DNA from: Apostichopus japonicus
Taxonomy: Eukaryota > Echinodermata > Holothuroidea > Aspidochirotida > Stichopodidae
Reading direction: 5' to 3'
DNA: 64,000 nt
NCBI RefSeq assembly: GCF_037975245.1
Contig: NC_092583.1
Span: 10,952,264-11,016,263 of the forward strand
Shown here: positions 26,118 to 62,425 of the stretch, one piece after another
Numbering within the stretch: position 1 is the first letter of the stretch
How the letters are laid out: the number at the start of each line of letters is the position of its first letter
Position numbers and translations under genes: made by a program
The notes under the pieces: model-generated
Told to the model about the DNA's origin: nothing
The model's database searches: none
Seen by the model: only the letters and a program-made list of their open reading frames with translations

Positions 26118-26488
26118 TTAGAATCAGTGTTCTGCTCACACAGTATCTCTGTTTACAAGATTGGACGATATTATATCAGTTGGAGAATCGGGTTCGCTAC
26201 GATGTACAGTGTCAAATACGAATCCAAAGGAGGATAACATCAATATGGTGATATTAGATGAAATGGTCAAAAATATACCAATCAGTACTTACCCATCGTG
26301 TTCCTGTTATTTACATGGAACAAGCCGAACATTTGATCATTAGTCTTAACCGTATGCACCGTAACTTCCTAAAGTCTCACAGTTACCCCAAACCTGACAA
26401 TAGTCCTACAGTGCACTCCATACAAGATTCAGCTATATACTACTGTTTTGAGTTTTCTAGCGGAATTGGGAAAATCTGTTTGATTTAG
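26118..26488 (+). pseudogene. Decayed V-type Ig domain upstream of Ig-2
   Basis: Homologous to 17,468-17,835. The first half reads DDIISVGESGSLRCTVSNTN in one frame. The second half, in another frame, ends DSAIYYCFEFSSGIG, an F-strand pattern like that of V-set domains. A frameshift lies between them near 26,270. Confidence 0.7.
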
Positions 26489-26691
26489 AGAAATCGTGTT
26501 CGTGTTATTTTTTGTTTTTGTAATACTAAATGTCTATCTGAGAACTGTACAGCCGCAAATTTCATATAAATTGGTAAACATGACCGTTGTGAATCATCTT
26601 CGAAAACAAAACCGTATGCATGTTGTTGTAGCTATACGGTTATGAACTCTTGCTTGTTTCTGTTTGTAGCAGTTCACGTATTGAAGCCAAA

Positions 26692-28131
26692 ATGGTTTAT
26701 CTTCGGTGGGTATTGCTTTTCGTTCCGTTACTTGCTTATTTCTTTCATCTATTGCTGGTCTTTGAGAGTCAGTGTTCTGCGCAGACAGTGTCTCTGTTTA
26801 CGAGATCAAACGACATTGTATTAGCTAGAGAATCGATATCACTGCAATGTTCAGTGTCAGACTCGAAACCAGAAGATGACATCGTCATGATGATAACAGA
26901 TGAAAGGGGACAACAGATTACTTCAGGTTCACCAGGACTGGACGATGCTACAGTTTACACCGAACTAACTACTCCATTTGAAATTAGTACAAACCAGACA
27001 TTCTTTTGCAGCGTAACTTGGGTAGACTTTACTGCTTCCACAAACCTGACAATATCACCATTACCAATTGAACAGACATATTGTACTTCAAACTACACGG
27101 ATGGTATCATTGTTGGACAATCGGTGACTTTAACATGTTATAGTTCTGCGTCAGTGGTCGGTTCCATTAGCTGGGATTCAGATAGTGATATAACATTCAA
27201 TGAAACGATAGGTCTTGTAAGGCTCATGACACGTTATAACAGGATAAATGTACAACCATCTTTAAGTCAAAACGGCAGTGTGTTTACATGCGAACGTGAT
27301 GGCGTAGCACCAGGAACCGACATAGACCGGTGTACCGTTGGTCCTATAACTGTTTACGAGGAACTGATTATTTTGATTAATCCAATAGTTACAACTGAAA
27401 CAGCAATATTGTATCCAGGACAAACAAAAAATTATACATGCTCATCTTTACCAACGTCATCTGTGCAGTGGTCCATTCCGAAGAAATTGGACGATTCTGG
27501 CATTGAGTTATCTGTGATTGGATCTAAGATTACAGTGCGTGTTGCAACTAATACTACATTCAGAGGTAATGTGCGTCTGGTTTGTTTTGGTAACAACTTT
27601 GAGCAAACAGCTGTTGCAATCATAACGTTAGCAATTAGCCGTCTGGGATCACCAACAACATCAGCCTCAAACATTGTTTCAAGTAAACCACCTGGTAATT
27701 CATTTCTTGTTGTTTCGCTAGTCACTGTCATAGGGTTCCTTTTATTTACATTGTCAATAATGTTTGTTCTACTTTACCGGAAGCGTAGACATACCGAGTC
27801 AAATTCCAAATCTGTTGCTAATGTAACATCTTCGGCGAATGTAGGCTACGATTATTGCGATTTTGATACCGGTGGTGTAACTAGAACCGTTACTTTAGAA
27901 ACTGAAGCAACCACAATCTCTGAAAACAGCCCCAACTCGAAAGAACAGTATTCTAGAGTAATCATAAATGAAAACGAATCGGTAGCCTACGAAATTCCAG
28001 ATGCTAAAATGGGAAACAAAAATCCAAGCAAGAGGAAAATTATTGACGAAAAAGGGAATGAGTCAGAATATTATGAAAATCCACAAAAGTTTAATTTTGA
28101 GACAAATGGGCAAAAAGAGAGTAAGCCATGA
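26692..28131 (+). CDS. Ig-2: three-Ig-domain type I receptor, class A
   Basis: 479 residues from the ATG at 26,692. An in-frame ATG 14 codons earlier is rejected: a likely 3' splice site (TTTCTGTTTGTAG) lies between the two, and family homology begins at MVYLRW. Signal peptide 1-30, Ig1 (C53/C106), Ig2 (C149, W161, C200, extra C131/C214), Ig3 (C250, W260, C298), transmembrane helix about 338-362, then RKRR. The tail has GYDYCDF, QYSRVII, AYEIP and YYENP. It stops after GQKESKP because the glycine codon of the Ig-1 sequence has become TGA, and the next Glu codon is TAG. The last NYEN motif is therefore lost. Relative to Ig-1 the DYCDI isoleucine is Phe. The frame is otherwise intact, so it is probably functional. 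Confidence 0.8.
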   Translation: MVYLRWVLLFVPLLAYFFHLLLVFESQCSAQTVSLFTRSNDIVLARESISLQCSVSDSKPEDDIVMMITDERGQQITSGSPGLDDATVYTELTTPFEISTNQTFFCSVTWVDFTASTNLTISPLPIEQTYCTSNYTDGIIVGQSVTLTCYSSASVVGSISWDSDSDITFNETIGLVRLMTRYNRINVQPSLSQNGSVFTCERDGVAPGTDIDRCTVGPITVYEELIILINPIVTTETAILYPGQTKNYTCSSLPTSSVQWSIPKKLDDSGIELSVIGSKITVRVATNTTFRGNVRLVCFGNNFEQTAVAIITLAISRLGSPTTSASNIVSSKPPGNSFLVVSLVTVIGFLLFTLSIMFVLLYRKRRHTESNSKSVANVTSSANVGYDYCDFDTGGVTRTVTLETEATTISENSPNSKEQYSRVIINENESVAYEIPDAKMGNKNPSKRKIIDEKGNESEYYENPQKFNFETNGQKESKP

Positions 28132-30640
28132 AAGTATTAGAATTCAGCTGTAGTAAAGCACAAATAAGATGAATGAAAAAAATCGTATTTACTCAATCAA
28201 ACCGTTTTCGAGAACCTAAAATTACCGGGCTACATTTATTGGGTCTTTCATGTAGCAGGTAGGAATGGGTTTACGATCTCATACCAGAACAGTGATATTT
28301 TTATTATATGAAACAATTACCATAATTAATTCAAATATGAATGGTTGGATGGCTAAGTTCGTAGAGCGCTGGTCAAATGTTTGAATGCCATTCTAGTCAT
28401 AAATTTCGTACCTTTTTTTCCAAGTTATAAGTTAATCAGGAATAATTGTTTGCCAAATGTACTTCGACGTCAAAAAATACTTTCCTTTAGGTAGTTGCAG
28501 TTTAACAGTACGAAGACTTGAACGAGATATTCCGTTGTATTACGTTGATAGCTTAACAACAAAGATGAAACTTTTCTGCATCTGTTGGCCAAAACATGTT
28601 CTTATAGCATTTTTGCTCAAGGAAAAGCTTTAAATTTAAGATGTCGAATATGGTAATAGGGAATTTAGATCATAAATAAATATGGTCTGAGTGCAAGTTT
28701 GTTCAAATAAGTACTTGCATTTTTGTGTAAGTTTAAAGGAGACTAGGGGTTCAACCCGACACACCCTTGATATCATACATGTTGTCTTTGATATGTGGTT
28801 TTGAATTATTTTAAGTGTTTTTATGGTATATATTTATTAGTATGTAGTAAACAGGACTTATTAAATGTTCTTAGCCTGTGTAGGATAGTTTATTTTCATT
28901 CTCTTCAGTCGGATCAGGTTTGGTGTATTCATTCGTCATATTTCTGTCTCTACATATTAAACAGGTTCCATTGTTGGAGTGCCATATCTAGTTCCCTGGC
29001 AGTTTTTCTATACATAAAATAATTATTGAACGTACAAAAAGATAGTGATATCAATGGTGCTTCATCTCAGACTTCTTGTTTGTTCTCTGTGGAAGAGCAG
29101 CAACATTCCAACTTTTTGCATTTTGTTAGCTTTGCAAAAATCTCTATATATAACTTAAACCTTGCAAAATCGGTCTTTACAAATTCAGAGAATCCTGCGA
29201 CGCTCAGAATTTTGAAGTTGGTCATTGCAGTACCACTCACTATTTGTACTCCGTTGATAATTTGTGCGAAAATGGTACTAACATTTTCGTCCAACCGTTG
29301 TTGACGATGCAACTAAATTCGGAGGTTTAATGTGCATTTTCTACCAAAAGGTGGCACCATAACATGGTTTGACATGCACGTTTCCAAAGCCCAAGGAGGT
29401 GGTAGGGTTGGAAGGAGGGGGGGGGGGGGGTGTAAACTGTTTTATGTGCTCGTGTGTGCCCTTGTGTATATGTGTGGGCAACGATATGTCCCAAAATGCT
29501 CAGTGCTTATTTGTACAGCGGATGTTCTTGATACGCATTGTGCATGACGCTCACCATGTGATGTAGGCCGTGAATTATGATTCATAGGGTCAAAGGTAAG
29601 AGGTACAAAACCAACAACACAATGACTAATACGCTTGTACCAAAATAACGAATTGTGGAAACAACTTCGAACTCCATTGGATATTAGACACCCGGTTAAT
29701 GGGACACTTGTTAATATTGGTCAAAAAAGTCATCTGAATTGAATAGACTGTCGTCATTTGTCGTGATGTTTAGTTTTCCAGTCAAACCAAGTCATAGGAA
29801 GGTTATACATTCAAACGTAAAAAATCGCTGATTATTTTTAACCTGTGACCAATTGGCGACTTTGTCTAATACGCCTGAGTGTATCCGCAAATAAAATAGT
29901 TTACTCGATTTGAATGAGACATGCTGTCAACAAGGAAGTGACAGAAAACGAATTTAAGCTTAATTGATTTTCGTCGAAAACGGTTGTTGCTTTCATTTTC
30001 CAAGGTATATACTTGGCTATATGTGCAATAAAAACGTAACGATACCTTACACTTCCTTATCGTTGAACCACACATATAGTGAGAATCCTATACGCTAGCA
30101 CTGAATTGGTACGTTATCAATGCAACTGTTATAGTTACTGTGTCAACATGGACATGTATCATCCATCAGTATACGAATGTATAAGAAGTTTGATATACCG
30201 TTTCTTTCCTATCGGCAGAATCTCGTGAGGCTAATAAAGATTATAACATTATTCGATTAAGAGGGGAATTCTTCTCCATTAACGCCAGTCTCTTTGTGTT
30301 CTAGTTCTTAATGGTTACATATTTCACATATTCCATTCTGTAGTTTATGAATATGCATGTGGAAGAATGTATTATCGTACAATAAGGACAGTAGCCTTCA
30401 CATAAGTCAATGGAATATTGAAAGAAATAGATACCTCAAGCAAAACGTGCAAACAAACAGCAAGCATGTCTGTGGCAGGGTTATCATAAATGGAAAATGG
30501 CGTCCATTACACTTGGTAAACATTATACTGGTATTAAATGAGACAAACAGTGAAAAATGTCGCTGGATATTGTTTGATATTGCAGACCAAGGAGATTTTT
30601 TTTACATGTGTTGTCAACCTCAATACTTTTATATATTTTG
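28132..30640. repeat. Array block D (downstream of Ig-2)
   Basis: Same landmarks as the D block after Ig-1: the decayed tRNA-like relic, GCGACGCTCAGAATTTTGAAG near 29,200 and the conserved G-rich run, here expanded to G13 (near 29,417). No supported coding sequence. Confidence 0.7.
28340..28404 (+). pseudogene. Decayed tRNA-like element, copy 2
   Basis: GGATGGCTAAGTTCGTAGAG resembles a D arm/A box and the 3' end reads TTCTAGTCATAAATTTCG. The middle is rearranged and the B box is degraded. Confidence 0.4.
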
Positions 30641-31048
30641 ATATCTCAACTTACTTTTTAGAGAGACAGTTTTATAATTAATATCAGCCTTTATCACGTT
30701 TTTTATGCTCAGACGGTTGATCCTAGAACAATGGGTAGGAGCGGGCACAATAACGTCCTTGGTCATTTGTCTAAGGCAATCGTGAACTTCCTCCTGCATT
30801 TGTACAGGCACTGAAATGCCATTGTTATCAATAGGTTATGAGTTGTAGGCATTGAATATTCGGGTCAGTGAATTAACATTACGTAGACCGATACGTGGTA
30901 TAGAATGCATCAATGCCATATTAGTGATAACTATGTTAACACTCCTGTCATAAGATTTGACTACATAGTCACGATTATAACTGGTAGTTTGTTTGTTGTA
31001 TTGGTGCAATAAGCTCACACGATCATGTTATATAATGTAATTAGTATT

Positions 31049-31345
31049 CATGCGCGTAGCCAGGAATCTGCAAAGGGAGGGGCGAAAATGTAGGTAAACT
31101 ATCAGAGCCGTAGATAAGACATTGCAAACTATCTAAACGTAGCTCCACCATGGTTGGCGCGAAGCGTGCAAGAAAATTTTGGCTGAAAATGCCTCCCAGA
31201 TCGCTGGAAATGGCACTTCCCAGGCCTTGTAAGTTGCATCTTAGCATTTTCTCTTTTGAAATTACTAGCGATATCATAAAAAAATTTAAAAATATGCTCA
31301 AGAGGAGGGGGGGCGGCTGCCCCCCCCCCCTTGGCTACGCGCCTG
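31049..31345. mobile_element. Non-autonomous hAT-type element with TSD
   Basis: The ends CATGCGCGTAGCCAGG and CCTTGGCTACGCGCCTG are inverted repeats of 14-16 bases beginning CA and ending TG. They are flanked by near-identical 8-bp direct repeats TTAGTATT (31,041-31,048) and CTAGTATT (31,346-31,353). Eight-bp duplications are typical of hAT transposons. At 297 bp there is no transposase, so it must have moved using an enzyme supplied elsewhere. A C-rich tract lies just inside the right end. Confidence 0.8.
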
Positions 31346-31416
31346 CTAGTATTGGACAGTTACCGGCACCAATCATACTTTCAAAAGCGTCCACATTTGA
31401 TTGAAACTCTTTGACT

Positions 31417-31563
31417 GGAGGAGGAGGAGGAGGAGGAGGAGGAGGAGGAGTAGGAGGAGGAGGAGGAGGAGGAGGAGGAGTAGGAGGAGGAGGAGGAGGA
31501 GGAGGAGGAGGAGGAGGAGGAGGAGGAGGAGGAGGAGGAGGAGGAGGAGGAGGAGGAGGAGGA
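31417..31563. repeat. (GGA)49 triplet microsatellite
   Basis: 147 bases of GGA units with two TAG interruptions near 31,450 and 31,480. The strand is purine-only except for those two T residues. Such mirror-repeat tracts can form triplexes or G-quadruplexes. Poly-Arg, poly-Gly and poly-Leu frames across it are artefacts. Confidence 0.9.
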
Positions 31564-32225
31564 ATGTGTTACTCTTTACTGTTTGCAAATTGACAGATGT
31601 ATCATCCAGTATTTACTGGCTAAAACTGGAAAGTGATATAAATCAATGTTCGAAATAATGATGTAAACTTTACTATCTGTTATAAGTCTATATGTTAGAA
31701 GTACATGTTATATGTGTTTATGTTAGAAGTACATGTTATATGTGTATAAGTGAGAAGTACATGTTATATGTGTATATGTTAAAAGTATATATGTCTAATG
31801 TATATATGTTAGAAGTTTATGTTAGAAGTATAAGTAAGCATATGTAGCTGTTTATTTATTTTTTTTGGTGACCAGAGTAGTCAGTTAACACACTTAACCT
31901 AAGATAATGTTTCATTCGGTGTTTGTTTCGTTTTTATTGAGTGGTGCCCCACCCCCCCCCCCCTTGAGTAATAATAAAACAGACTTTAATGGTAGTAGAA
32001 GTATGCATCGACTCATTGAATATTTATTACTGTCGTGTCTTAGACGGAGATCAAGGCGTTCTTGAAAAATGTAACATTTTTAAATATATATAACGTCCAC
32101 ATTTTGAATGTATTTATCCTATGATCACATGACCATTTCATTCTCCTCAGTCAGAGCACGTCCTTTGTATCAAGAAGAATTCAAAGTTTGATTTCAAAGC
32201 TTCTAACGATGCTTTTCTCCCTAAT

Positions 32226-32440: not shown

Positions 32441-32441
32441 A

Positions 32442-32446
<5 letters not shown>

Positions 32447-38424: not shown

Positions 38425-40104
38425 GAATACAATCATTTACTTATAATATTCTCTGTAGGAGCTTACGTTCATCGTTTTTCTTCAGAATTGAATATTCATG
38501 TTCTAAAAGAGAAATAAATTCATCTAAAAACGTTATGACATCTGGCAGTTTTTCGTTTTGTTTACAAGTGAAAATAAAGTATTTTGCATGTAGCAAAAAA
38601 AGTTCACCGGATGTCTTATGTCTTCGATGTAACCAAATTTGACGTTAACTACGGTGATTTTACTAATATCTTTCAAAAAAAATCTGGCAGCGATATACCA
38701 AAACGTTTGGACAAATGGTCACAAAGAAAAAAGATGTTCAAGAGTCTCATCATCATGTTGGCAAAAGGTACAAAGAGGTACATTTCTTCGACCAATCCTG
38801 AACAAGAACGTATTCATGCCAATAATTCTATGAATGAAACGAAACTGAAAATATTGTAAGTTTACGTCTCTCACAGCAGCATCAGGAAGACTAAAAATAG
38901 CATTCCAGTTATATTCATAAAGGTCTAAACTCTGCCATTTAGAAATTGACCTCGGTTGTGAAGCTATCTGATTAATGAAATATTGATAAGTAATTTTTGT
39001 TACACGAGGATAGCTAGTAAATTTGACTAGACGAAAGATATTCCCATTCAGAGTATCCGTTTCATTCATATTAGTTTTCCAAGTATTTGGAATGGCCAAT
39101 ATCAAGCCAAATTAGAGAGTGAATGGGAAACTTTCCGTAATATCGTACTTTCTTTTGAAAGAAACATAATCTAAACAATTTCCATATCCGTCAGAGAAAT
39201 CACGTATGAAATATGCATTTTTCTCCAATAGTATCCGTTCGAGAAAACAATATTTCTATTTATCCTAATAAACGAGTTATTGAGTATATACTCATTTGAG
39301 AAGTTACTTTCTGGAGAACGGAAATGATAATCTGACCACGAACTACACACCTCAATAATTAAAGTGTTCGCAATTTCAATATCATGTTTACAAAAAATTA
39401 CATTTTAGTAGGAAACCTCCACCATATTTGCTGAGTGCCTTGTCAAATAAAATTGTCCATGCCCCTGGACTGTCATCGTGGTGTAGTTTCACCCATTTAC
39501 ATTTAAGACTCTTCGCGAACAAACTCAAGTCAATCATATTGAGTCCACCATTACACTTTGCATTAACTAACACCGACCTCTTCACTTTGTCCGGTTTGCC
39601 TCACCAGACAAACTTGTAAAAAAGATTTATTCAGTTCTTGCAAATAACTTGAGTGTGAATTTGACAAAACTACAAGGAGATAAACCAATTGTGATATACA
39701 ATTATTTTTTTTTTATAATTCTAGTTTTTCCGTTAGGTGTGAGGTCCCTAGTAGACCATAAATTGATAAGTCTTTAAATACGTGACAGTTTTGGAATATA
39801 GTTCAATTTGAAAAAGGGATCTCCGTGATGATTGAATGTTATTCCCAAATAGGTAACAGGTTGATCGCTAATTTTGAACACAACATCATAAAAATACCAA
39901 GGAGGGTCAATACATAAAGGACCCAGAGGAAACAATTTAGACTTGGTTATATTAATCTTCAAACCAGAAACGTCTGTAAAGTTATCTAAAGTCGAAATAA
40001 CACCCTTAAAAGAATCATTCGTACCATGTGTGATGATAACAGTATCATCGACATCATTGGAAATTTTGAACGTTGTACCTGAAATTGAAATGCCATGAAC
40101 AGTT
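38425..40104 (-). mobile_element. 5'-truncated L1-like non-LTR retrotransposon fragment
   Basis: On the minus strand, from right to left, it encodes the end of a reverse transcriptase: the active-site region as DVDDTVII (usual form YADD), then SGLKINITKSKLFPLGP and YLGITFNHHGDPFFKL. Next come NGGLNMIDLSLFAKSLKC, a zinc-knuckle region (CTFCQHDDETLEHLF) and a C-terminus ending RKLLQRIL and TAA at 38,441-38,443. Frames change several times and the catalytic tyrosine is Asp, so it is dead. Compared with block U of Ig-1 it replaces about 390 bases (16,496-16,894). Confidence 0.75.
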
Positions 40105-40671
40105 TAAAGGCTCTTGTAAACTTTTGTTTTCGTCAACTCACTTCGCCTCTTCACTGTTAATGTAACAGAAATGTGAATTCGAAATATATGTTATCCTCCC
40201 AGAACTATCTCTACTTTACACTAAATCTAATGGCTTACACAACGACACTGAGCTGAATTGTTTACTGTTTTAATTTCTAACAAAATTTTACCATTTCTGG
40301 AAAATGAGTTCCTTTTCGTTTTATGTTTGTTTACATTCTCAACGTGCTATTGACCTCTGAGATGCAATCTTCTGGTCACACACTATTTCTAGTTGATAGA
40401 TGGACTACAATATATAATTAATTATAAATCGCCAGCAATTTGAGAAATCCACTTGTTACGTCACTGCAATTATAATTTTGTCTCTTTGAGCGATGTGCAG
40501 CCATTTAAGTTCATTGTTGCAGGTGTGAATACTACCTCAAGAATATCCGTATTTAACGGTCACTGGAAAGATTTTTTTCCCGCATGTATAATATTCGTTT
40601 ATTCAACTCTACCTAAATAGCAAGAATGAATGTTATTGGAGGATCAATGGTTTTCACGTACTGCTGCTCTT
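40105..40671. repeat. Array block U (upstream of Ig-3), right part
   Basis: Resumes the U block with TTTAAAGGCTCTTGTAAACTTTTG. It includes the exon-like VQPFKFIVAGVNTTS segment (about 40,489-40,570), here with the acceptor changed to TTTGAG and the donor to AAAGAT. It would not splice as in the other copies. Confidence 0.65.
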
Positions 40672-41040
40672 TTAGAATCAGTGTTCTGGTCACAGAGTAT
40701 CTCTGTTTACAAGATTGGACGATATTATATCAGTTGGAGAATCGGTTTCGCAACGATGTACAGTGTCAAACACAAATCCAGAGATAACATCAATATGGTG
40801 ATAACAGATGAAATGGTCAAAATATACCATTCCGTACCTACCCATCCTGTTCCTGCTATTAACATAGAACAAACCAAACATTTGATCAATAGTCTTAACC
40901 GTATGCACCGTAACTTTGTATAGTATCACAGTTACCCCAAACATGATATTAGCCCAATAGTGCACTCCATACCATACTCAGGTATATCCTACTGTTTTGT
41001 GTTTTCTAGCGGAATTGGGAAAATCTTTTTGATTTACAGA
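40672..41040 (+). pseudogene. Decayed V-type Ig domain upstream of Ig-3
   Basis: Same family as 17,468-17,835. A four-base deletion after AATCCAGA removes part of the NPEDDNIN stretch and shifts frame. A stop follows TFVSHS-like sequence near 40,921. Confidence 0.65.
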
Positions 41041-41204: not shown

Positions 41205-41297
41205 ATGGTTTATCTTCGGTGGATATTGCTTTTCGTTCCGTTACTCGCTTATTTCTTTCATCTATTGCTAGTTTCCGAGAGGCAGTGTTCTGCATAG
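41205..41297 (+). pseudogene. Dead class A leader before Ig-3
   Basis: Thirty codons encode a class A signal peptide (MVYLRWILLFVPLL, ending RQCSA), and the next codon CAG is TAG. Beyond CTCTGTTTA the similarity to the receptor genes ends. The upstream acceptor-like TTTCTGTTTGTAG is retained. The same stop occurs in the unit before Ig-4, so the truncation predates duplication of the class B unit. Confidence 0.8.
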
Positions 41298-41406
41298 ACA
41301 GTGTCTCTGTTTAAATCATGTACGCATACAATGGCGTGTCATAGCTAAAAGAAAATTCCATTCAGAGAGTACAAAGTGAGATTTTTCGGTTCAGTGAATT
41401 CATTTT

Positions 41407-41775: not shown

Positions 41776-43287
41776 ATGGATTATTTTCGGAGTATATTTT
41801 CCTTTCCTTTGCTTGTTGTATTTTTGGGTGCATTGCTGGTTTTTGAGAGTCATTGTTCTGCGCAGACAGTGTCCCTGTTTACGAGATTCAACGACATTGT
41901 ATTAGCTGGAGAATCGATATCACTCATATGTTCAGTGTCAGACACGAAACCAGAAGATGACATCACCATGCTGATATTAGACGGCATTAGCCAGTTCGAA
42001 TTAGAACCGGTGCCTGATGTAGCAGTTTATACTCAAAGAACCAGCACGGATATGATGATTGAAAGTAACCGGAGATTCGTTTGTATCGCGTCTGGGATAA
42101 ATTTGACAGATTCAAAAGACCTGACGATATCACCATTACCGAATAAACAGACATATTGTACAACAGACTACACGGATGGTATCCTTGTTGGACAAACTGT
42201 GACTTTCACATGTTATAGTTCTACGTCAGTGGTAGGGTCCATTAGCTGGAGTTCAGATAGTGATGTAACATTCGATGAAGTAAAAAGTATTATAAGGAGC
42301 ATGACCATGACTAACACGATAAATGTACAACCATCTGTAAGTCAAAATGGCAGTGTGTTTACATGTGAACGTGATGGCGTAGCACCAGTTACCGACATAG
42401 ACCGGTGTACCGTTGGTCCTATTAACGTTTATGAGAAGTTGATTGTTTTCATTGATCCAATAGTTACTACAACTGATCCAGCTATATTGTATCCAGGACA
42501 AACAAAAAATTATACATGCTCATCTTTACCAACTTCATCTGTGCAGTGGTCCATTTCGAAGAAACTGAACGATTCTGATATTGAGTTATCTGTGATTGGA
42601 TCAAAGATAACAGTAACTGTCCCTAGCGATAGTAACTTTACAGGTGATGTAGACTTGTTTTGTTCTGGTAACATCCTTACTGAACCTTCTACAGCAAGCT
42701 TAACGTTAGTAATCAATCCCATGGAATCTGTACCCTTGCTCACATTGGTCAGTTCTCCCGAAAAATCAGCACCAACAACATCAGCCTCTAACACAGTTAC
42801 AAGTAAACCACCTGGTAATTCATTTCTTGTTGTTTCGCTAGTCACTATCATAGGGTTCCTTTTATTTGCGTTGTCAATAATGTTTGTTCTACTTTACCGG
42901 AAAAGTACACATACCGAGTCAAATTCCAAATCTGTTGCTAATGTAACGTCTTCGGCAAATGTAGGCTACGATTATTGCGATATTGATACCGGTGGTGTAG
43001 CTACAACCGTTACTTCAAACACTGAAGCAACCACAGTCTCTGAAAGCAGCCCCAACTCGAAAGAACAGTATTCTAGAGTAATCATAAATGAAAACGAGTC
43101 GGTAGCCTTAGAAATTCCAGATGCTAAAATGGGAAACGAAAATCCAAGCAAGAAGACAATTATTGACCAAGAAGGGAATGAGTCAGTATATTATGAAAAT
43201 CCAGAAAAGTTTAATTTTGAGACAAATGGGCAAAAAGAGAGAAAGTCAGGAAACTATGAGAATTCTGATGTAGTAAAGCACAATTAA
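41776..43287 (+). CDS. Ig-3: three-Ig-domain type I receptor, class B, intact
   Basis: 503 residues, single exon. The signal peptide (1-29) differs from that of class A (MDYFRSIFSFPLL). Ig1 has C52/C103 and the class B second half (LILDGISQFELEPVPD, then RRFVCIASG). Ig2 has C146, W158, C197 and the extra pair C128/C211. Ig3 has C248, W258, C296 and diverges after SKITVTV. The stalk is about 20 residues longer than in Ig-1 (MESVPLLTLVSSPEKS). Transmembrane helix about 349-374, then RKSTH instead of RKRR. Tail tyrosines are Y398/Y400, Y432, Y472/473 and Y494 (NYENS). The usual YEIP is LEIP here (TAC changed to TTA), losing one candidate SH2 site. It reads through to KHN and is probably functional. 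Confidence 0.85.
   Translation: MDYFRSIFSFPLLVVFLGALLVFESHCSAQTVSLFTRFNDIVLAGESISLICSVSDTKPEDDITMLILDGISQFELEPVPDVAVYTQRTSTDMMIESNRRFVCIASGINLTDSKDLTISPLPNKQTYCTTDYTDGILVGQTVTFTCYSSTSVVGSISWSSDSDVTFDEVKSIIRSMTMTNTINVQPSVSQNGSVFTCERDGVAPVTDIDRCTVGPINVYEKLIVFIDPIVTTTDPAILYPGQTKNYTCSSLPTSSVQWSISKKLNDSDIELSVIGSKITVTVPSDSNFTGDVDLFCSGNILTEPSTASLTLVINPMESVPLLTLVSSPEKSAPTTSASNTVTSKPPGNSFLVVSLVTIIGFLLFALSIMFVLLYRKSTHTESNSKSVANVTSSANVGYDYCDIDTGGVATTVTSNTEATTVSESSPNSKEQYSRVIINENESVALEIPDAKMGNENPSKKTIIDQEGNESVYYENPEKFNFETNGQKERKSGNYENSDVVKHN
41965..42119 (+). other. Class B variable cassette of Ig domain 1
   Basis: This part replaces the class A sequence of Ig-1/-2/-5. The flanks (…GTGTCAGACNCGAAACCAGAAG upstream, CCTGACGATATCACCATTACC downstream) are nearly identical in all genes. 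The matching part of Ig-4 (52,886-53,045) is of the same class. Confidence 0.65.
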
Positions 43288-45110
43288 GATGATTGATATA
43301 ATGAAAATCGTATTTGTTCAAGCAAACCGTTTTCGAGAACCTTTAATTACCGGGCTTCATTTATTGGGTCTTTCATGTAGCAGGTAGGAATGGGTTTTCG
43401 ATATCATACCAGAACAGTAATATTTTTATTATATGAAACAATTTCCATAATTAATTCAAATATTAATGGATGGCTAAGTTGGTAGAGCGCTGTACTTGTA
43501 ACCCGGAGATCAATGGTTCGAATCCCTTTCTAGCCATAAATTTCATTGTTCTTTTCCCTGTTATAATTTGCCATATGTTCTTCCAAGTAAAAAGGAAATT
43601 TGGTTCAAATAAATACTTTGATCTTTGTGTGAGTTTAAAGAGATTGGGGGGGGGGGGGGATACACTCGGACACAACCCTGTAATCAAACATGTTGCCTTT
43701 GATATGTGGTTTTGAATTTTGTTGATAATTTTTTCGATGATATATATTTATTAGTCTTCAGTAATCAGGACTTAATAACTGTTCTTAGCCTGTGTAGGAT
43801 AGTTTATTTTCATTCTCTTCAGTCGGATCAGGTTTGTTGTATTCTTTCGTCATATTTCTGTCTCTATATATTAAACAGGGTTCATCGTTGGAGTACCATA
43901 AATAGTGCCCTGGCAGTTTTTCTATACGTTAAAAGTTTTTATCGTACAAATAGATAGTGATATCTTTCGTTCTTCTTTTAAGAATTCCTTTTCTTAGCTG
44001 TGGAAAAGCAGCAATAGTCCTACTGTTTGCATTTTGATAGTTTTGCTTAAACTTATCTATAAAAAACTTAAGCCTTGTAGAAACGGTATATACAAATTCA
44101 GAGAATCCTGCGACGCTCAGAATTTGAAGTTGGTCATTATGGTAACGCTCACTACTGTACTCCATTGGTGACACTGCAACTAAACTGAAGGTTTAATGTG
44201 CATTTGTTACCAAAAAGTGACACCATAACATGGTTGGACATGCACGTTTCCAAAGGCCAAGGAGGTGGTTTGGTTGGGGTGGGGGTTGTAAAATGTGTTA
44301 TGTTCTCGTGTGTGCCCTTGTGTATATGTGTGAACAACGATATGTCCCAAAGTGCTAAGTGCGCATTGGTACGGCGGATGTGCTTGATACGCATTGTGCA
44401 TGAGCCTCACTATGGGATGTAGGCCTTGAATTATGATTTATAGGGTCAAAGGTTAAGAGGTACAAAAAGAACAAAACAATGCAAATACGCTTGTACCAAA
44501 ATGAAGAATTGTGAAACAACCTTAAAACTCACGTTGGATATTAGACACCCGGTTAATAGGACACTTGAGTGACCAAATGGCGACTTTGTCTAATACGCCT
44601 GAGTGTGTCCGCAAACATAATAGTTTACTCGATTTGAGTCAGATATTCTGTAAACAAGCTAGTGACAAAATAAGCTCCACTGATTTCGTCGAAAACGGTT
44701 GTTGGCTCCATTGTACAGGGTATATTCTTGGCTATATGTGCAGTACAAACGTAACGATACCTTACACTCCCTTATCGTTGAACCATACATATAGTGAGAA
44801 TCCTATATGCTAGCGCTAATTTGCTACGTTATAAATGCAACAGCTACAGTTATTTTGTCAGCATGGAACATGTATCATCCATTAGTAGACGAAATTATGA
44901 GAAGTTTGAGATATCGTTTCTTTCCTTTCGGTAAAATCTGATGAGCCTTACAATGGTTATTATTCGATTAAGAGGGTTATTTTTCGTCGTTAACGTTATT
45001 CATTTCCCTAAAATGTGCCAAAGAGGCATAAACATAATGAATGTACAGTCTCTTTTTTCAAGTTCTTAATGGTAAAATATTTCACAGAATTCATTCTGTA
45101 ATTTATGAAT
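43288..45110. repeat. Array block D (downstream of Ig-3)
   Basis: Contains the best preserved tRNA-like relic, a G12 run near 43,647, the CGACGCTCAGAATTTGAAG landmark near 44,113 and the G-rich run near 44,267. No supported coding sequence. Confidence 0.7.
43464..43535 (+). tRNA. tRNA-Thr(UGU)-like relic, copy 3, best preserved
   Basis: A box TGGCTAAGTTGGTAGAGCG and B box GGTTCGAATCC are both present at normal spacing. The anticodon loop CTTGTAA would give anticodon TGT (Thr). The acceptor pairs at four of seven positions (TAATGGA/TCTAGCC), whereas copy 1 pairs at all seven. The anticodon stem has two mismatches. It is more likely a tRNA pseudogene or a tRNA-derived SINE head than a working tRNA. 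Confidence 0.4.
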
Positions 45111-45949: not shown

Positions 45950-46640
45950 GTATAGAAATATATGTTAGAAGTATATGTTAGATGTATATATGTTAGAAAT
46001 ATATGTAAAAAGTGTATGTAAGATGTATATATGTTCGAAGAATATGTTACAAGTATATGTTCGAAGTATATGTTAGAAGTATATATGTTAGAAGTATTCG
46101 TTAGAAGTATATGTTAGATGTATATATGTTAGAAGTGCATTTTAGAAGTATATATGTTAGAAGTATATATGTTAGAAGTATATGTTAGAATTATATGTTA
46201 GAAATATATGTTAGAAGTTTATGTTAGAAGTATAAGTAGCATACATAGCTGTTGATTTTTTGTTTGTTTGGTGACCAGGGTAGTCAGTTAACACATTTAA
46301 CCTTAGATAATGTTTCATTCGGTGTTTGTTTTTGTTTTTATTGAGTGGTGTTTTCCCACTTTTGAGTTATAAATAAAACAGACTTTGAAGGTAGTAGAAG
46401 TATGCATCGACTCATTGAATATTTGTAATTGTCATGTCTTAGATGGAGAGCAAGGCGTTCTTTAAACATGTAACATTTATAAATATATGTAACGTCCATA
46501 GTTTGAATGTATTTATCATATGATCACATGTCCATTGCATTCTCCTCAGTCAGAGCATGTTCTCTGATCAAGAAGTATTCAAAGTTTGATTTCCAAGCTT
46601 CTATCGATGCTTCTCTCCCTTATTCGTTACATACGTAATG
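45950..46640. repeat. Array block E, copy 3, with longest minisatellite
   Basis: The TATATGTTAGAAG minisatellite spans about 45,950-46,230, the longest of the four arrays. It is followed by the conserved GGTGACCAGGGTAGTCAGTTAAC segment. No gene. Confidence 0.7.
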
Positions 46641-52136: not shown

Positions 52137-52229
52137 CTGGATTATATTCAGCGAACACTGCTTTTGGTCCCGTGACTTGCTTATTTCTTTCATCAATTGC
52201 TGGTTTTTGAGAGGCAGGGTTCTGCATAG
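52137..52229 (+). pseudogene. Dead class A leader before Ig-4
   Basis: Homologous to 41,205-41,297, with the ATG changed to CTG and the same TAG replacing CAG after the leader. Similarity to receptor genes ends at the same point. Confidence 0.7.
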
Positions 52230-52338
52230 ACAGTGTCTCTATTAAAATCATGTACGCATACAATGGCGTGTCATAACTTAAAGAAAATTACATTTAGAGA
52301 GTACAAAGTGAGATTTTTCGGTTCAGTGAATTCACTTT

Positions 52339-52705: not shown

Positions 52706-54134
52706 ATGGATTATTTTCGGAGTGTATTGTCCTTTCCTTTGCTGGTTTTATTTTTGGGTGCATTGCTGGTTTTTGAGAGTCATTGTTCTGTACACACATT
52801 GTCCCTATTTACGAGATTCAACGGCATTGTATTAGCTAGTGAATCGAATCACATGTTCATTGTCAGACTCGAACCCAGAAGATGACATCAGCATGCTGAT
52901 ACTAGACGGCGTGAGCCAGTTCGAATTAGTACCGGTGCCTGATGTAGCAGTTTATACTCAACAAATCAGCACGGATATCATTATTGAGAGTAACCGGACA
53001 TTCACTTGTATCGCGGTTGGGGGAAATTTTACAGCTTCCAGAAGCCTGACGATATCACCATTACCGAATAAACAGACACATTGTACAACAGACTACACGG
53101 ATGGTATCCTTGTTGGACAAACTGTGACTTTCACATGTTATAGTTCTATGTCAGTGGTAGGGTCCATTAGCTGGAGTTCAGATAGTAATACAACATTCGA
53201 GGAAGTAAAAAGTAATATAAGGAGCATGACCATGACTAACACGATAAATGTACAACCATCTGTAAGTCAAAATGGCAGTGTGTTTACATGTGAACGTGTT
53301 GGCGTAGCACCAGTTACCGACATAGACCGGTGTACCGTTGGTCCTATTAACGTTTATGAGAAGTTGATTATTTTCATTGATCCAATAATTACTACTAGTG
53401 ATCCAGCAATATTGTATCTAGGACAAACACAAAATCATACATGCTCATCTTTACCAACTTCATCTGTGCAGTGGACCATTCCGAATAAACTGGACGATTC
53501 TGGCATTGAGTTCTCTGTGGTTGGATCAATGATAACAGTGCATGTTACAACTAATACTACATACATAGGTGATGTGCGTCTGAATTGTTCTGCTAACATC
53601 CTTGATCAAACAGCGGTAGCAAACATAACGTTAGCAATTAGCCCTCTGGAATTACCAATAACATCAGCCTCAAACACAGTTTCAAGTAAACCACCTGGTA
53701 ATTCATATGTTGTTGTTTCGTTAGTCACTGTCATAGGGTTCATTTTATTTGCGTTGTCAATAATATTGGTTCTACTTTACCGGAAGCGTAGACATACCGA
53801 GTCAAATTCCAAATCTGTTACTAGTGTAACGTCTTCGGCGAATGTAGGCTACGATTATTGCGATATTGATACCGGTGGTGTAACTAGAACCGTTACTTCG
53901 AACACTGAAGCAACCACAATCTCTGAAAACAGCCCCAACTCGAAAGAACAATATTCTAGAGTAATCATAAACGAAAACGAGGAGGTAGCCTACGAAATTC
54001 CAGATGCTAAAATGGGAAACGAAAATCCAAGCAAGAGGACAATTATTGACGAAGAAGGGAATAAGTCAGAATATTATGAAAATCCAGAAAAGTTTAATTT
54101 TGAGACAAATGGGCAAAAAGAGAGTAAGCCTTGA
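52706..54134 (+). pseudogene. Ig-4: class B Ig receptor with 5-bp frameshift
   Basis: The leader ATG at 52,706 (MDYFRSVLSFPLL, with C-S-V-H instead of C-S-A-Q at the cleavage site) starts a frame equivalent to Ig-3. Five bases are missing inside the codons for ESISLIC (near 52,842), so translation from the ATG shifts and stops within about 15 codons. After the lesion the frame is intact for 430 codons: class B Ig1, Ig2 (extra cysteines kept), an Ig3 of class A type, transmembrane helix, and a tail with YDYCDI, YSRVII, AYEIP and YYENP. It ends at GQKESKP with the same TGA as Ig-2. The long intact remainder points to a recent lesion, a population variant or a sequencing error. Confidence 0.75.
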
Positions 54135-56089: not shown

Positions 56090-57930
56090 TTACAATATAT
56101 ATAATCCTGTATCTCGCATTTGCTTTTATGCTCAGTCGGCTGATCCTAGATGATGGGGCAGGGGCGGGCATATAGTAACGTCCTCATTTGGCTAAGGCAA
56201 TCGTGAACTTCCTCCTGCTTTTGAACAAGCACTGCAATGTCATTGCTATCATAGGTAACGAATTGAATGCATTTGAATATTCGGGTCGGTGAATTTACAT
56301 AACGTAGGCCTATATACTGTAAATGTTCGAAATAATGATGTCAACGCTATACGTGCCTACATGTTTGTTTTAGAGGGAGCTGAATTCGAGACCAGTGTAT
56401 ACACTTGGATACACCTGCACATACTTTACGCTCAGTCTAAGGACTTCAGTTAATAACTGAATTATTGAACTAGCCTTATATCAACTCTATGTGAGAGTGA
56501 AGAACTTAAATAAGCAAAATAACATAAAATGAAATAAATTGCAAATATCTGTCAATACAACTGCAAGTGCATATACAAGTGAAGAATTTATTTGAAAACA
56601 GCTGCTGTCAATCAATTGTTGAAAACTTGAAGAACCTCACTTTAAATAGTTGCAACATTATGTGCAAAGTTAAGTCAAGAACTTTATTGTAAAAGAATTC
56701 GATCAACTGTAAATACATGAAGTTAAGAAGTTAGCTTTGAAATCTTGAAGTGAAAATGTGCTTTTTCTAAATAGCGACTTATGCCAACTCAAAACTTAAA
56801 TAGCTGTTGACCCAACTTTATACGGTAGGAAAGAACGTTATTGTAAATAGCTGTCAATCAACTATGATAGGAAACGACGAACTTTATTTTATGTTTGTAA
56901 ATACTTGTCGACCAACTGAATAATTAAGAGAATAACGTATAATAGCTGATTTTCCTCATATTCTGGTTTATCTTTTCACGGAATAAACATCTTACTTGAA
57001 ATATGTTGTTCATCATAGGAGTTCCATATGAAGGATTCTCGTGAGTTCCAACGTTAAGCGTTCATAGGTTAGCCTTAATGTGGCACTTACTGTGTTTTTT
57101 AAATACAATAACAACTTTAATTGAAGTTTGAAGCATATGCGATTACATTCATACAACAAACAGACTGTATAATTTCCCTCCAAGCTTGTATCAGATGATG
57201 AAAGCTATACAAAAGAAACTAACGACATTAAATGTATAGAAGTAAATGTTAGAAGTATATGTTACAAGTATATTTTAGATGTATATGTTAGAAGTATATG
57301 TTACAAGGATATGTTTAATGTATATATGTTAGATGTATATATGTTAGATATATATATATGTTGGCAGTATATGTTGGAAGTATATGTTAGAAGATTACGT
57401 TAGAAGTATAAGTTAGCATATGTAGCTGTTGATTTTATTTTATGTCTGGTGAACAGGGTAGTCATGTGACACACTTAACCTCAGATAATGTTTATTCGGT
57501 GTTTTGTTTTTGTTTTATTGAGTGGCGTTTTTGTCACCTTTTGAGTACTAATAAAACATACTTTGTTTGTAGTATAAGTATGCATCGTCTCATTGAATAT
57601 TTCTTACTGTCATGTCTTAGATGGAGAGCAAGGCATTCTCATAATATGTCACATTTTTAAATATATATACTGTCCATAGTTTGAATATACTTATCATATG
57701 TTCACATGTCCATTTCATTCTCCTCAGTCAGAGAATGTTCGTTGTATCAAGAAGGATTTAAAATTTGATTTCCCAGCTTCTAACGACGTTTCTCTTCCTT
57801 AATTCGTTAGATATTTTCAAGAAACGGTTATACGTCTATATCTTTCTACATGTCCTATATACAGTATTTATTCATCAGTACCTTCTAACGGTGTGTTTAT
57901 AGTAGGTTGGATTTCTAGTAAGTTGTACTG
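56090..57930. repeat. Array block E, copy 4, with satellite
   Basis: Holds the minus-strand QEEVHDCLSQMR stretch (56,100-56,300), the degenerate AGCTGTCAATCAACTG satellite (56,480-56,950) and the TATATGTTAGAAG minisatellite (57,240-57,415). The conserved GGTGAACAGGGTAGTCATGTGAC segment follows. Confidence 0.65.
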
Positions 57931-57933
57931 CGA

Positions 57934-60485
57934 TTGAGTTGTGTAGGCCATGATCCTCCAAGATGCATCTTTTTAGAAAGTTGTTTTCTAAAATATGTTG
58001 GCATTGGCATTGGCTTACGGATGGGATGTTGGCAATTGAAATATTTTCCTATTCGACAGGCTTTTGTTTGTATACCGCATTTAGTTTGGCTAATTGTTAT
58101 TCAAAGATGTTGGCGATGGCAGGTGCCGCATACTCCACAACAGGCAGGGCAATATGTGCAAGTGCAAGAGTAACTGTCTGTTGAACATGTTTATGCACAT
58201 TCCGTGTACCGAGTATATATACTTGTACATATATAAACCCAAGAGTACGTACTTCGGCAGAACAGCTGGCTACACGAGAGAGGGAACTAACCAACGGGAA
58301 GACATGTATGCTGCGTAGACATATAACGTGCACAGGCCTTTTTAGGGCTAAGACGAAAGTCGCCTATAGTGGTATTACAAAATCTATACAGTAATATCAT
58401 ATAATCCCTTGATGAATTTTGCGTTTTTTCCCTCTTATTTTGCAAGATTTATACCGTTTAGTTGTAAGTGACAACACGACCTACAAAGTTTAAGGAGACT
58501 GCTATGACGGGATGTTCTAAACAAACTGTTAACTGGTCAAATTAAACGAACACTTGCAAAAAGATAACTCTTAATTAGAAATTTGCTACAACCAAAACTG
58601 GAGCAAAGAAATTTCCAAGTTACCTCTATCTATACGCACCCAGACTCGTCGAGATCGAATACCTGCGTCTGCAATTTCATTGATCTAAACGGGGTAAATT
58701 TAAACATGTAAGATTCAACATGTAAGCTAATGCTTTATGATCATGCGTGAGAAACCATTAGTTAATGTTTTCCAGGAAAGCATTAATAAATGTCTGCAAC
58801 ATTAAATATATTCCAGACTATTACATAAACGAGGACACTATGTCAGAGAAGTTCTAAAAACGAATGGTAAAAATGAATGAAATTTAATGCCCTTGAGGTC
58901 TGGAAGGAACTCAAAGCACGTGATGCGTGCACGTGCTTCACGCTTTATAATTATAGATCGCTTTGACCCTATTATAGCTGAACTCTGACCAATGCACGTT
59001 TCTTCAGGCGGAACTATACACAGCAACAATGCCACCGACGGCGTTGGCAAGCCCAAAGTAACCACCAATTGAATGTTTGCAGATTAAACAACCATTCTAT
59101 TATAATCTTCTTATAGCAAACGAAATGATAGTTTTCTGAGAAGATTATAGAATCATTTAAAGGAATAACACACGTTAACCGTAGAGCGGTAAACGCATAA
59201 ACATGGTAGCCTATTTGCAAAGCAGTAGTCTCATAGAACACAAATGATGCTGTTGTAAAATGACATTACTTTAACGACACAGTATGGACTCATCTTTCAC
59301 AATGATTATATATGGTGTTACATATGGTGTTCCATGGAAGTCAACAAAGGTGGTCATTATAACGGTCATACACAGATTTGCTTTTACTTCCTGTAAACTA
59401 TATATAACTACATCTGAACGTTACGAGTCAGTGAATTGAGTACTTTGGGAGTGCAAATATTGGTACGCTTGTATAACTGTAGGTAACAAACCTATATGGC
59501 ACACGGAAATGCGCTTGTGTAAGTGTCCTCAACTACATGCTTTTGTAAACTTAACGATTGATACTCTATCAGCAATACTAACATAAATTCAGTTTTATTG
59601 CATCTCTTTGGTTGGAACGTAAATCAAGTATTCAGTACAAGAGATCCAGTTTTGAATCAAGCCAGTTCGTGAATTTGTGTTAGAGACAACTCTCTAGAAG
59701 GTAAAGGTTTGTTTCTTATTTGCTGATATTGTGTTCTACAGTTTTGTTTTTGTCTTATGGTATACTTATTATTGAGGAAACATTCGAGCATCGAACCACA
59801 CTTCCATAATACCAATTTGACATCCAAATCAAAAACATCACCACGTACCACGGATATTATATACAGAAATTACATAGTGAAACTAGTTTATGCAACAGCA
59901 GAGTAGCTCATAACAGATCCAAAAGTTTAAAGGCTCTCGTCAACTCATTTCGCCTCTTCACTGTTAATGTAACAGTAATGTTAAATCGAAATGTGTGTTA
60001 TCCTCCAAGAACTATCTATATACTTTACACTTAATCTAATGGCTTACACAACGACACTGAGCTGAATTGTTTACTGTTTCAATTTCTAACAAAAAGTTAC
60101 CATTTCTGGAAAATGAGTTCCTTTTCGTTTTATGTTGGTTTACAATCTCAACGTGCTATTGACCTCTGACATGCAATGTTCTGGTCACACAATAGCTATA
60201 GTTGATAGATGCACTACATTATATAATTTATTATACATCGCCATCAATTTGAGAAATCCACTTCATGATACGTCACTGCAATTATTATTTTGTTTCTTTC
60301 AGCTATGTGCAGCCACTTAAGTTCATTGTTGCAGGTGTGAATAATACCTCGAGAATATCCGTATTTAACGTTCACTGGAAAGGTTTTTTCCCGCATGTAT
60401 ATTATTCGTTCATTCAACTCTACTTAAATTGCGAGAATGAATTTTATTGGAGGATCAATGGTTTTCTATGTACTGCTGCTTTTTT
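57934..60485. repeat. Array block U (upstream of Ig-5), twin of 23,381-26,117
   Basis: Almost identical to the block before Ig-2 apart from a ~184-bp deletion at about 59,262. Frames at 58,838-59,068 and 59,657-59,851 (minus) repeat those before Ig-2 and are not supported as genes. The exon-like VQPLKFIVAGVNNTS segment is at 60,302-60,383. Confidence 0.8.
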
Positions 60486-60854
60486 AGAATCCGTGTTCTG
60501 GTCACACAGTATCTCTTTTTACAAGATTGGACGATATTATATCAGTTGGAGAATCGGGTTCGCTACGATGTACAGTGTCAAATACGAATCCAAAGGAGGA
60601 TAACATCAATATGGTGATATTAGATGAAATGGTCAAAAATATACCAATCAGTACTTACCAATCGTGTTCCTGTTATTTACATGGAACAAGCCGAACATTT
60701 GATCATTAGTCTTAACCGTCTGCACCGTAACTTCCTAAAGTCTCACAGTTACCCCAAACCTGACAATAGTCCTACAGTGCACTCCATACAAGATTCAGGT
60801 ATATACTACTGTTTTGAGTTTTCTAGCGGAATTGGGAAAATCTGTTTGATTTAG
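60486..60854 (+). pseudogene. Decayed V-type Ig domain upstream of Ig-5
   Basis: Best preserved copy of the relic, with about three differences from the Ig-2 copy. The first half reads DDIISVGESGSLRCTVSNTN. The second half, in another frame, ends in the V-set-like F strand DSGIYYCFEFSSGIG. The leader is not in phase and a frameshift separates the halves. Confidence 0.7.
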
Positions 60855-61057
60855 AGAAATCGTGTTCGTGTTATTTTTTGTTTTTGTAATACTAAATATC
60901 TATCTGAGAACTGTACAGCCGCAAATTTCATATAAATTGGTAAACATGACCGTTGTGAATCATCTTCGAAAACAAAACCGTATGCATGTTGTTGTAGCTA
61001 TACGGTTATGAACTCTTGCTTGTTTCTGTTTGTAGCAGTTCACGTATTGAAGCCAAA

Positions 61058-62425
61058 ATGGTTTATCTTCGGTGGATATTGCTTTTCGTTCCGTTACTTG
61101 CTTTTTTCTTTCATATATTGCTGGTATTTGAAAGTCAGTGTTCTGCGCAGACAGTGTCTCTGTTTACGAGATTAAACGACATTGTATTAGCTGGAGAATC
61201 GATATCACTCAGATGTTCAGTGTCAGACACGAAACCAGAAGATGACATCATCATGGAGATAACGAATCAAACGGGACAACAGATTACATCAGGTTCAGCG
61301 GGACTGGACGATGCTACAGTTTACACCGAACTAACTACTCCATTTGAAATTAGTACAAACCAGACATTCTTTTGCAGCGTTACTTGGGTAGACTTTACTG
61401 CTTCCACAAACCTGACGATTTCACCATTACCAATTGAACAGACATATTGTACTTCAAACTACACGGATGGTATCATTGTTGGCCAAACTGTGACTTTAAC
61501 ATGTTATAGTTCTACGTCAGGGGTAGGTTTCATCAGCTGGAGTTCAGATAGTGATATAACATTCGATGAAACGATAGGCCTTGTAAGGACGATGACACAA
61601 TATAACAGGATAAATGTAAAACCATCTGTTAGTAGAAACGGCAGTGTGTTTACATGTGAATGTGATGGCGTAGCACCAGTAACCGACATAGACCGGTGTA
61701 CCGTTGGTCCTATTTATGTTTATGAGAAGTTGGATATTTTCATTGATCCAATAACTACTACAACTGATCCAGCTATATTGTATCCAGGACAAGCAAACAA
61801 TTATACATGCTCATCTTTACCAACTTCATCTGTGCAGTGGTCCATTCCGAAGAAACTGGACGATTCTGGTATTGAGTTCTCTGTGGTAGGATCAATGATA
61901 ACAGTGCGTGCTACAACTAATACTACATTCATAGGTGATGTCCGTCTGGTTTGTTCAGGTCAAATCCTTGACCAAACAGCTGCAGCAAACATAACGTTAG
62001 CAATTATTCCTCTGGAATTACCAACAACACCAGCCTCAAACACAGTTTCAAGTAAACCACCTGGTAATCAATTTCCTGTTGTTTCGTTAATCCCTGTCAT
62101 AGGGTTTCTCTTATTTGCGTTGTCAATAATATTGGTTCTACTTTACCGGAAACGTAGACATACCGATTCTGAGTTAAATTCCAAATCTATTGCTAATGTA
62201 ACCTCTTCGGTGAATGTAGCATACGATTATTGCGATATTAACACCGATAGTGTAGCTAGAACCGTTACTTCTAGAGTAATCATATATGAAAACGTGACGG
62301 TAGCCTACGAAATTCCAGATGCACGAAGCACGAGGACAATTATTGACGAAGAAGAGAATGAGTCAGTATATTATAACAATCTACAAAAGTTTAATTTTGG
62401 GACATATGGGCAAAAAAGGGAGTAA
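61058..62425 (+). CDS. Ig-5: three-Ig-domain type I receptor, class A, shortened tail
   Basis: 455 residues from the ATG at 61,058, chosen as for Ig-2. Signal peptide 1-30. Ig1 C53/C106 (class A), Ig2 C149/W161/C200 with extra C131/C214, and Ig3 with its cysteine pair and Trp. A transmembrane helix ends LVLLYRKRRH. Two things are odd in the extracellular part: Ig2 has ECDG instead of ERDG, adding an unpaired-looking Cys, and VGSISW is VGFISW. The tail lacks 19 codons (57 bp), removing the YSRVII tyrosine while keeping SRVII. YYENP is YYNNL, and a one-base insertion near GQKRE gives an early stop, losing NYEN. YDYCDI and AYEIP remain. Probably expressed at the surface but with reduced signalling motifs. 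Confidence 0.8.
   Translation: MVYLRWILLFVPLLAFFFHILLVFESQCSAQTVSLFTRLNDIVLAGESISLRCSVSDTKPEDDIIMEITNQTGQQITSGSAGLDDATVYTELTTPFEISTNQTFFCSVTWVDFTASTNLTISPLPIEQTYCTSNYTDGIIVGQTVTLTCYSSTSGVGFISWSSDSDITFDETIGLVRTMTQYNRINVKPSVSRNGSVFTCECDGVAPVTDIDRCTVGPIYVYEKLDIFIDPITTTTDPAILYPGQANNYTCSSLPTSSVQWSIPKKLDDSGIEFSVVGSMITVRATTNTTFIGDVRLVCSGQILDQTAAANITLAIIPLELPTTPASNTVSSKPPGNQFPVVSLIPVIGFLLFALSIILVLLYRKRRHTDSELNSKSIANVTSSVNVAYDYCDINTDSVARTVTSRVIIYENVTVAYEIPDARSTRTIIDEEENESVYYNNLQKFNFGTYGQKRE

Follow-up and report, generated by a model that had tools for sequence, protein, structure and literature searches.

The window analysed here is a stretch of 64,000 nucleotides from the holothurian Apostichopus japonicus (NCBI RefSeq assembly GCF_037975245.1; 671.6 Mb in 35 contigs), at positions 10952264-11016263 of the 18.2-Mb contig NC_092583.1, called C23 below. 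It holds a tandem array of five open frames of 431-503 amino acids, Ig1 to Ig5, and every full-length product, read by eye, comprises a signal peptide, three immunoglobulin (Ig)-like domains (D1 to D3), a transmembrane stretch and a tail. The four tails that were scanned carry 7-9 tyrosines each and no canonical immunoreceptor tyrosine-based activation motif (ITAM). This putative receptor family is of interest because of the way in which divergence between its members, above all Ig2 and Ig5, changes abruptly along the gene. Coordinates of all features are collected in the table.

Pfam profiles place Ig1, Ig2, Ig3 and Ig4 in at least one Ig family each above the curated cut-off; Ig5 matches Ig_3 (E 1e-4) and ig (E 0.006), both below it. 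For the family, Pfam gave nothing beyond generic Ig domains, NCBIfam had no match in five members, and two sequence searches of the PDB returned no Ig relative below E 0.5. Pattern matches to the family in prokaryote contigs (41) and viral contigs (30) yielded no confirmed member. Searching the genome with Ig3, we found 17 gene-sized matches, all in the interval 10.743-11.152 Mb of C23; beyond these there were one weak match on contig C15 (E 1e-4) and 14 short ones, 12 of which begin at query residue 18 or 19 and cover one and the same region near the gene start. For the 12 gene-sized loci that lie outside the window we added the surrounding DNA, and we aligned 12 array genes by coding sequence.

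Features of the window, in window coordinates (position 1 is the first nucleotide)
Feature	Positions	Strand	Remarks
Ig1 coding sequence	18039..19511	+	outside the nine-gene group; upstream DNA 87% to Ig2
Ig2 coding sequence	26692..28128	+	type B, 479 aa; signal peptide, three Ig-like domains, stalk, transmembrane stretch, Tyr-bearing tail; single open frame
Ig3 coding sequence	41776..43284	+	alternative version of signal peptide and of second half of D1
Ig4	52706..54131	+	frame broken as read; 5-nt deletion near D1 start
Ig5 coding sequence	61058..62422	+	type A, 455 aa; layout as Ig2
Common 5' region, Ig2 copy	24902..26690	+	1.8-kb query; low divergence to about -2000 from ATG
Common 5' region, Ig5 copy	59267..61057	+	shared at 96-100% among nine array genes
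Upstream extension of homogenised tract, Ig2 side	23192..24719	+	seen in Ig2/Ig5 pair; left edge 23192 (interval 23144-23414)
Upstream extension of homogenised tract, Ig5 side	57735..59266	+	left edge 57735 (interval 57687-57961)
Dip inside Ig2/Ig5 tract	60230..60520	+	17/290 differences vs 48/3050 in remaining tract
Ig2 ectodomain segment (+90..+950)	26782..27642	+	part of old type-specific divergence island
Ig5 ectodomain segment (+90..+950)	61148..62008	+	part of old type-specific divergence island
Ig5 stalk, transmembrane stretch, tail and 3' flank	62009..63900	+	near-identical to type D genes L017/L018 over first kb, then 1-4%
Fossil gene-start copies, about 165 bp	17446-17578, 26097-26229, 40651-40783, 60463-60595		71-77% to coding sequences except frame-broken Ig4
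Broken 5' ends of Ig2/Ig5 kind	41205-41313, 52137-52243 (approximate)		some 0.5 kb upstream of Ig3 and Ig4
Minisatellite, units like TATATGTTAGAAG	22690-22793, 31674-31832, 45953-46234, 57232-57416		at all four unit junctions in window
(AT)n arrays	23046, 32442, 50387
TM2-domain frame	10835-11041	+	E 5e-6, just under cut-off
Reverse-transcriptase zinc-binding piece	38719-39105	-	E 6e-4, under cut-off
tRNA-like match	43467-43532	+	may be part of a short interspersed element

A step in divergence at the start codon

The initial annotation had reported that Ig2 and Ig5 differ at a single position over the ~215 bases leading up to the ATG and at about ten within the first ~190 coding bases. We count 1/215 and 11/190 (ATGs at 26692 and 61058), and on those same two windows coding divergence exceeds upstream divergence (Fisher p=0.0019). 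The full alignment likewise shows a step in identity near the ATG, with 4/540 differences before it and 39/540 after it when the windows are widened. The best change-point lies at +18 to +46 from the ATG, with an interval of -13..+56 or +1..+56 for two search ranges running from 60520 into the coding sequence; the interval is +5..+151 when the search begins at 58200, and moves to +411..+462 when the search extends to 63900, owing to a renewed rise in divergence in that part. None of 2000 shuffles matched the observed statistic.

Viewed by segment in Ig5 coordinates, the pair differs at 44/2513 positions from 57680 to 60200, 17/290 from 60230 to 60520, 4/537 from 60520 to the ATG, 138/1324 in the coding sequence and 208/1465 in the 3' flank. 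The tract of high similarity reaches about -3.4 kb and has diverged homologous sequence on both sides, its left edge separating 46/431 differences outside from 23/906 inside. The stretch is thus far more similar than its homologous flanks at both edges, the signature of a gene-conversion tract: a young tract between old flanks points to gene conversion as its source. On the Ig2 side the left edge adjoins the (AT)n array at 23046-23130. When polarised by Ig1, the Ig2/Ig5 differences at -2900..-941 are balanced, 9 and 9, in this single assembled haplotype. Promoter constraint was rejected as an explanation for the similarity of the 5' side, since the other nine pairs of window copies are 12.9-25.2% apart in the same 540 bp (for Ig3 and Ig4, the DNA ahead of the fossil 5' piece), leaving Ig2/Ig5 as the only pair this similar upstream.

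The annotation had also described the 3' flank of Ig5 as closer to Ig1 than to Ig2. This holds locally, at 62515-62714 (26 informative sites favouring Ig1 against 7 favouring Ig2), and reverses at 62815-63014 (12 against 24).

Synonymous sites identify the young side

Synonymous sites of Ig2 and Ig5 differ at 45/334, far more than the 5' flank from 60520 (p=1e-15) and indistinguishably from the 3' flank (p=0.79). Synonymous and non-coding sites therefore shift alike at the edge, as they would at the end of a conversion tract, and because synonymous sites step as much as others, the step does not come from selection on the protein. Faster coding evolution was discarded as its cause for the same reason, synonymous divergence (dS) rising as well. 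Over the whole gene dS is 0.148 and nonsynonymous divergence (dN) 0.107, a dN/dS of 0.72 (bootstrap 0.52-1.03). Nor is the coding divergence of the pair unusual: 140/1351 (10.4%) for Ig2-Ig5 compares with 145/1417 (10.2%) for Ig1-Ig2 (Fisher p=0.95). In the Ig2/Ig5 comparison it is the 5' side that is young, and the coding part has the ordinary divergence of old array copies.

Nine genes share a 5' region across four ectodomain types

A search with the 1.8 kb upstream of Ig2 returned at least nine full-length copies at 96-100%, each immediately ahead of a family gene, and at least 16 weaker or partial copies; all 25 listed lie on C23 and none elsewhere. A simple two-gene conversion between Ig2 and Ig5 was accordingly dropped, because the genome has nine genes with this 5' region. 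What the nine have in common is about 1.8-2 kb of upstream DNA and much of the signal-peptide codons, and they are spread over about 355 kb of C23.

By coding sequence, the nine genes are of four types: A (Ig5, L014 and L016), B (Ig2), C (L013, L015 and L019) and D (L017 and L018). In 200-bp windows from 0 to +1000, genes of different type differ by 8.6-20.5% on average and genes of the same type by 0.1-0.6%, whereas from -2000 to -1 the two ranges overlap (between-type means 1.3-4.1%, within-type means 0.6-3.9%). In 17/17 windows from -3400 to 0 some gene resembles another type more than its own, against 1/14 from 0 to +2800; Ig5, despite its type A coding part, is nearest Ig2 almost throughout the windows between -3400 and -1200. 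Among informative sites (minor letter carried by two or more genes), those that respect the types number 25/59 upstream, 5/6 in the leader, 151/156 in the ectodomain, 35/36 from stalk to tail and 179/182 in the 3' flank (ectodomain vs upstream, p=2e-18). An ectodomain tree recovers types A, C and D at 100/100 support each, and the upstream tree rejects A as a single clade (approximately unbiased test, p-AU 0.018) and A+D (p-AU 0.0017). Upstream histories ignore the ectodomain types, and coding histories follow them.

The ectodomain is an island of old divergence

The 5' edge is a property of the whole subgroup. Change-points searched within -1000..+600 fell at +46 (14 pairs), +105 (6), +110 (4), +135 (3) or +142 (2) in all 29 between-type pairs, with intervals spanning -10 to +158 except for Ig5/Ig2 (-8..+424). 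Signal-peptide cleavage is expected, by eye, near +84..+90 (after CSA and before QTVSLF), so that the edges fall inside or just past the signal peptide.

A second edge lies at the far end of the ectodomain. Between types A and D the 3' change-point is at +951 in all six pairs, the end of Ig domain 3 and the border between ectodomain and stalk; past it, these pairs show 2-4 differences in 1050 columns, and Ig5 and L017 have none in the stalk, transmembrane and tail codons. Among the 28 pairs of eight representative genes (search range +400..+1300), 12 have a 3' break with a log-likelihood gain above 10, all at +951..+1031; the remaining 16 have weaker breaks (gain 1.7-8.6), mostly elsewhere.

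Ectodomain dS (0.158-0.360) exceeds that of stalk, transmembrane stretch and tail (0-0.156) in each of the 28 representative pairs, which makes the ectodomain an old island and the neighbouring DNA younger. A functional coding segment older than the DNA beside it, dS included, is thus found in several gene pairs, and in types A and D the three-Ig ectodomain stands as old sequence with young DNA on either side. As segment averages, ectodomain dN/dS is 0.53-0.83 in 28/28 pairs, so dN exceeds dS in none, and the ectodomain does not show gene-wide positive selection.

Mechanism and alternatives

We hold with high confidence that the step seen between Ig2 and Ig5 marks the gene-proximal end of a homogenised 5' region common to a gene subgroup. 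Gene conversion is the likely source of that region, judging from the sequence patterns, since two-sided young tracts that ignore the types are most simply produced by conversion. Interlocus conversion among array members would homogenise the 5' region and, in types A and D, the tail as well. Conversions reaching the ectodomain may be purged by selection because they would overwrite the binding surface of a type; in the regulatory head, the leader and the tail, conversion would be neutral or useful. Such selection would explain the 5' edge and the +951 edge alike, although whether it guards the ectodomain is, in our estimate, roughly an even question. Taken whole, the account in which conversion homogenises the 5' end and sometimes the tail, and a presumably selected ectodomain is spared, seems to us quite probable. 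The annotation's appeal to conversion from another paralogue therefore survives in altered form, with the upstream tract as the homogenised young part and conversion acting chiefly on the 5' side.

Several observations sit uneasily with this account. Upstream, a single type C clade is not rejected (p-AU 0.064), and type D stays together. Homogenisation is uneven, type D being 7.3-7.6% from the other types at -400..-200, and outside the A-D comparison tails are only partly homogenised (dS 0.05-0.16). The 29 between-type pairs share ancestry and so are not 29 independent events; they may reflect few. No signal of GC-biased conversion was found (weak-to-strong changes 37, strong-to-weak 45). The ectodomain itself contains a conversion-like patch between Ig1 and Ig3 at +80..+153 (P 0.0004) and a conversion-like Ig3/Ig4 tract in D2, identical at 153/154 positions (P 0.055).

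Among alternatives, one that needs no selection deserves the most weight, and we regard it as possible though distinctly less probable: meiotic breaks and conversion would begin near promoters and end at the gene start, with ectodomains that had by then diverged by several percent rejecting heteroduplex and so making the edge self-sustaining. Exchange is indeed densest upstream, and the edges lie just inside the gene, at the jump in divergence. This mechanism does not predict the second edge at the ectodomain/stalk border, nor the placement of every strong 3' break among the representative pairs at +951..+1031; it also lacks both the GC bias expected of strong conversion and an upstream CpG island (CpG observed/expected 0.79-0.86 in the nine genes). 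We think it unlikely that units were recently duplicated whole and then received divergent ectodomains copied in from other paralogues. The cassette-like edges on both sides in A-D and the second D1 version carried by Ig3 and Ig4 would fit such import, but the 3' flanks of A, B and C are as old as their ectodomains (between-type means 6-28% per window, most pairs), which means that the units were not recently copied whole, and the 12 aligned array genes include no near-identical ectodomain donor.

The diversifying selection that the annotation also proposed, here an acceleration of coding change after duplication, finds some echo in tail dN/dS near or above 1 in some comparisons and in the Ig3/Ig4 value of 1.17, Ig4 being frame-broken. 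We judge it very improbable, given that synonymous sites rise equally at the same place, that neither the ectodomain ratios nor the Ig2-Ig5 value reported above exceeds one, and that coding sequences of one type differ by so little per window. Just as improbable is an assembly artefact in which near-identical repeats were mixed or over-corrected: the units are tandem and near-identical, yet differences within the tract are spread out and not absent (the 44/2513 given above), and the pattern recurs in nine genes across a long span of one contig. Conversion with a spared ectodomain remains our preferred explanation.

Relation to known systems

The nearest parallel is in primate L/M opsins, where, in gibbons, non-coding DNA is less diverged than exons, and exons exceed introns in divergence at synonymous and nonsynonymous sites alike; conversion tracts lie mostly outside exons, a pattern explained by conversion together with selection against it in functional exons (PMC3213168). 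As in the opsins, a functional coding segment is older than its neighbouring DNA. The opsins are two genes with introns, whereas the array has nine genes of four types, each with a single open coding frame, and what is homogenised here is the 5' flank and leader, in A-D also the tail (PMC3213168). The mammalian BEX/WEX/GASP genes resemble the array in that conversion joins a homogenised 5' non-coding part to divergent coding parts; there the shared element is a motif of the 5' untranslated region and the proteins are unrelated or far diverged, and here it is about 2 kb of upstream DNA plus leader within one receptor family (PMC1274310). Segmental concerted evolution of major histocompatibility complex (MHC) class I genes also homogenises the membrane-near domain and keeps the recognition region distinct, although it proceeds exon by exon, and the array does so within a single open frame and includes the 5' flank (PMC1403747).

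In the paired receptors CD300A and CD300C, conversion between Ig-superfamily paralogues likewise homogenises one module only, in mirror image: the ectodomain is homogenised and the tail is divergent (PMC12447643). Sea urchin Sp185/333 genes share tandem arrangement, conversion and simple repeats at segment borders with the array, but they are not Ig receptors, and gene and near flanks are homogenised jointly (PMC3091723, PMC5103432). Hydractinia Alr genes are also clustered single-pass Ig-superfamily genes, pseudogenes included, with interlocus exchange suspected; the likeness is one of layout, and the four scanned tails here are without a canonical ITAM (PMC11067881, PMC3276163). The segment-wise conversion pattern is thus of an already known kind. 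The receptor family and its arrangement were not found in the literature searched, from which subscription papers were mostly absent.

Further features of the array

The second half of D1 exists in two versions, one in Ig1, Ig2 and Ig5 and the other in Ig3 and Ig4, over codons ~64-117 (about +190..+350). Between the groups dS is 0.92-1.18 and dN 0.66-0.75, against a dS of 0-0.11 in the preceding 34 codons, making this block a sharper divergence island than the main ectodomain island. An identical Ig2/Ig5 run at +243..+322 was considered as conversion and rejected: it stands out because Ig3 and Ig4 carry the second D1 version, and it loses significance among Ig1, Ig2 and Ig5 alone. In the tail, Ig5 (62009-62422) is without two in-frame blocks found in Ig1-Ig4 and has a shifted end, and many pairs have dN/dS close to 1 over stalk, transmembrane stretch and tail, as would be expected of a weakly constrained tail. 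Three further array genes, L009, L010 and L011 (C23:10743192, 10748448 and 10754738), combine the usual kind of ectodomain with a different, longer, acidic-ended tail bearing several tyrosines, so that the array has two tail kinds, as in paired receptors.

The fossil gene starts precede the ATG by about 1.1 kb in unit 3 and by about 600 bp in units 1, 2 and 5. Their in-frame TAG is identical in 4/4, and at least 12 such pieces occur over the array. The leaders of Ig3 and Ig4 are of another kind than those of Ig2 and Ig5; from the sequence layout, with broken Ig2/Ig5-like 5' ends upstream, Ig3 and Ig4 seem to have arrived later, downstream of an older gene start that is now dead.

Implications

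Greater divergence in coding than in flanking DNA need not indicate positive selection. The array offers a clean natural case of this in an intronless single open frame, where the part left unconverted, extending from about the signal-peptide cleavage site through the third Ig domain, marks what selection may keep distinct. A more ambitious idea, which we would call a long shot, is a modular germline receptor array in which ongoing conversion keeps a regulatory head and leader uniform and the membrane and tail parts partly so, with distinct three-Ig ectodomains shielded from it. If that were true, members would be interchangeable in expression and signalling, as for example in a choice of one member per cell or in self/non-self recognition by distinct ectodomains. 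The array points to a putative family of tyrosine-tailed Ig receptors with common promoters, and whether its members are expressed all at once or one per cell is directly testable.

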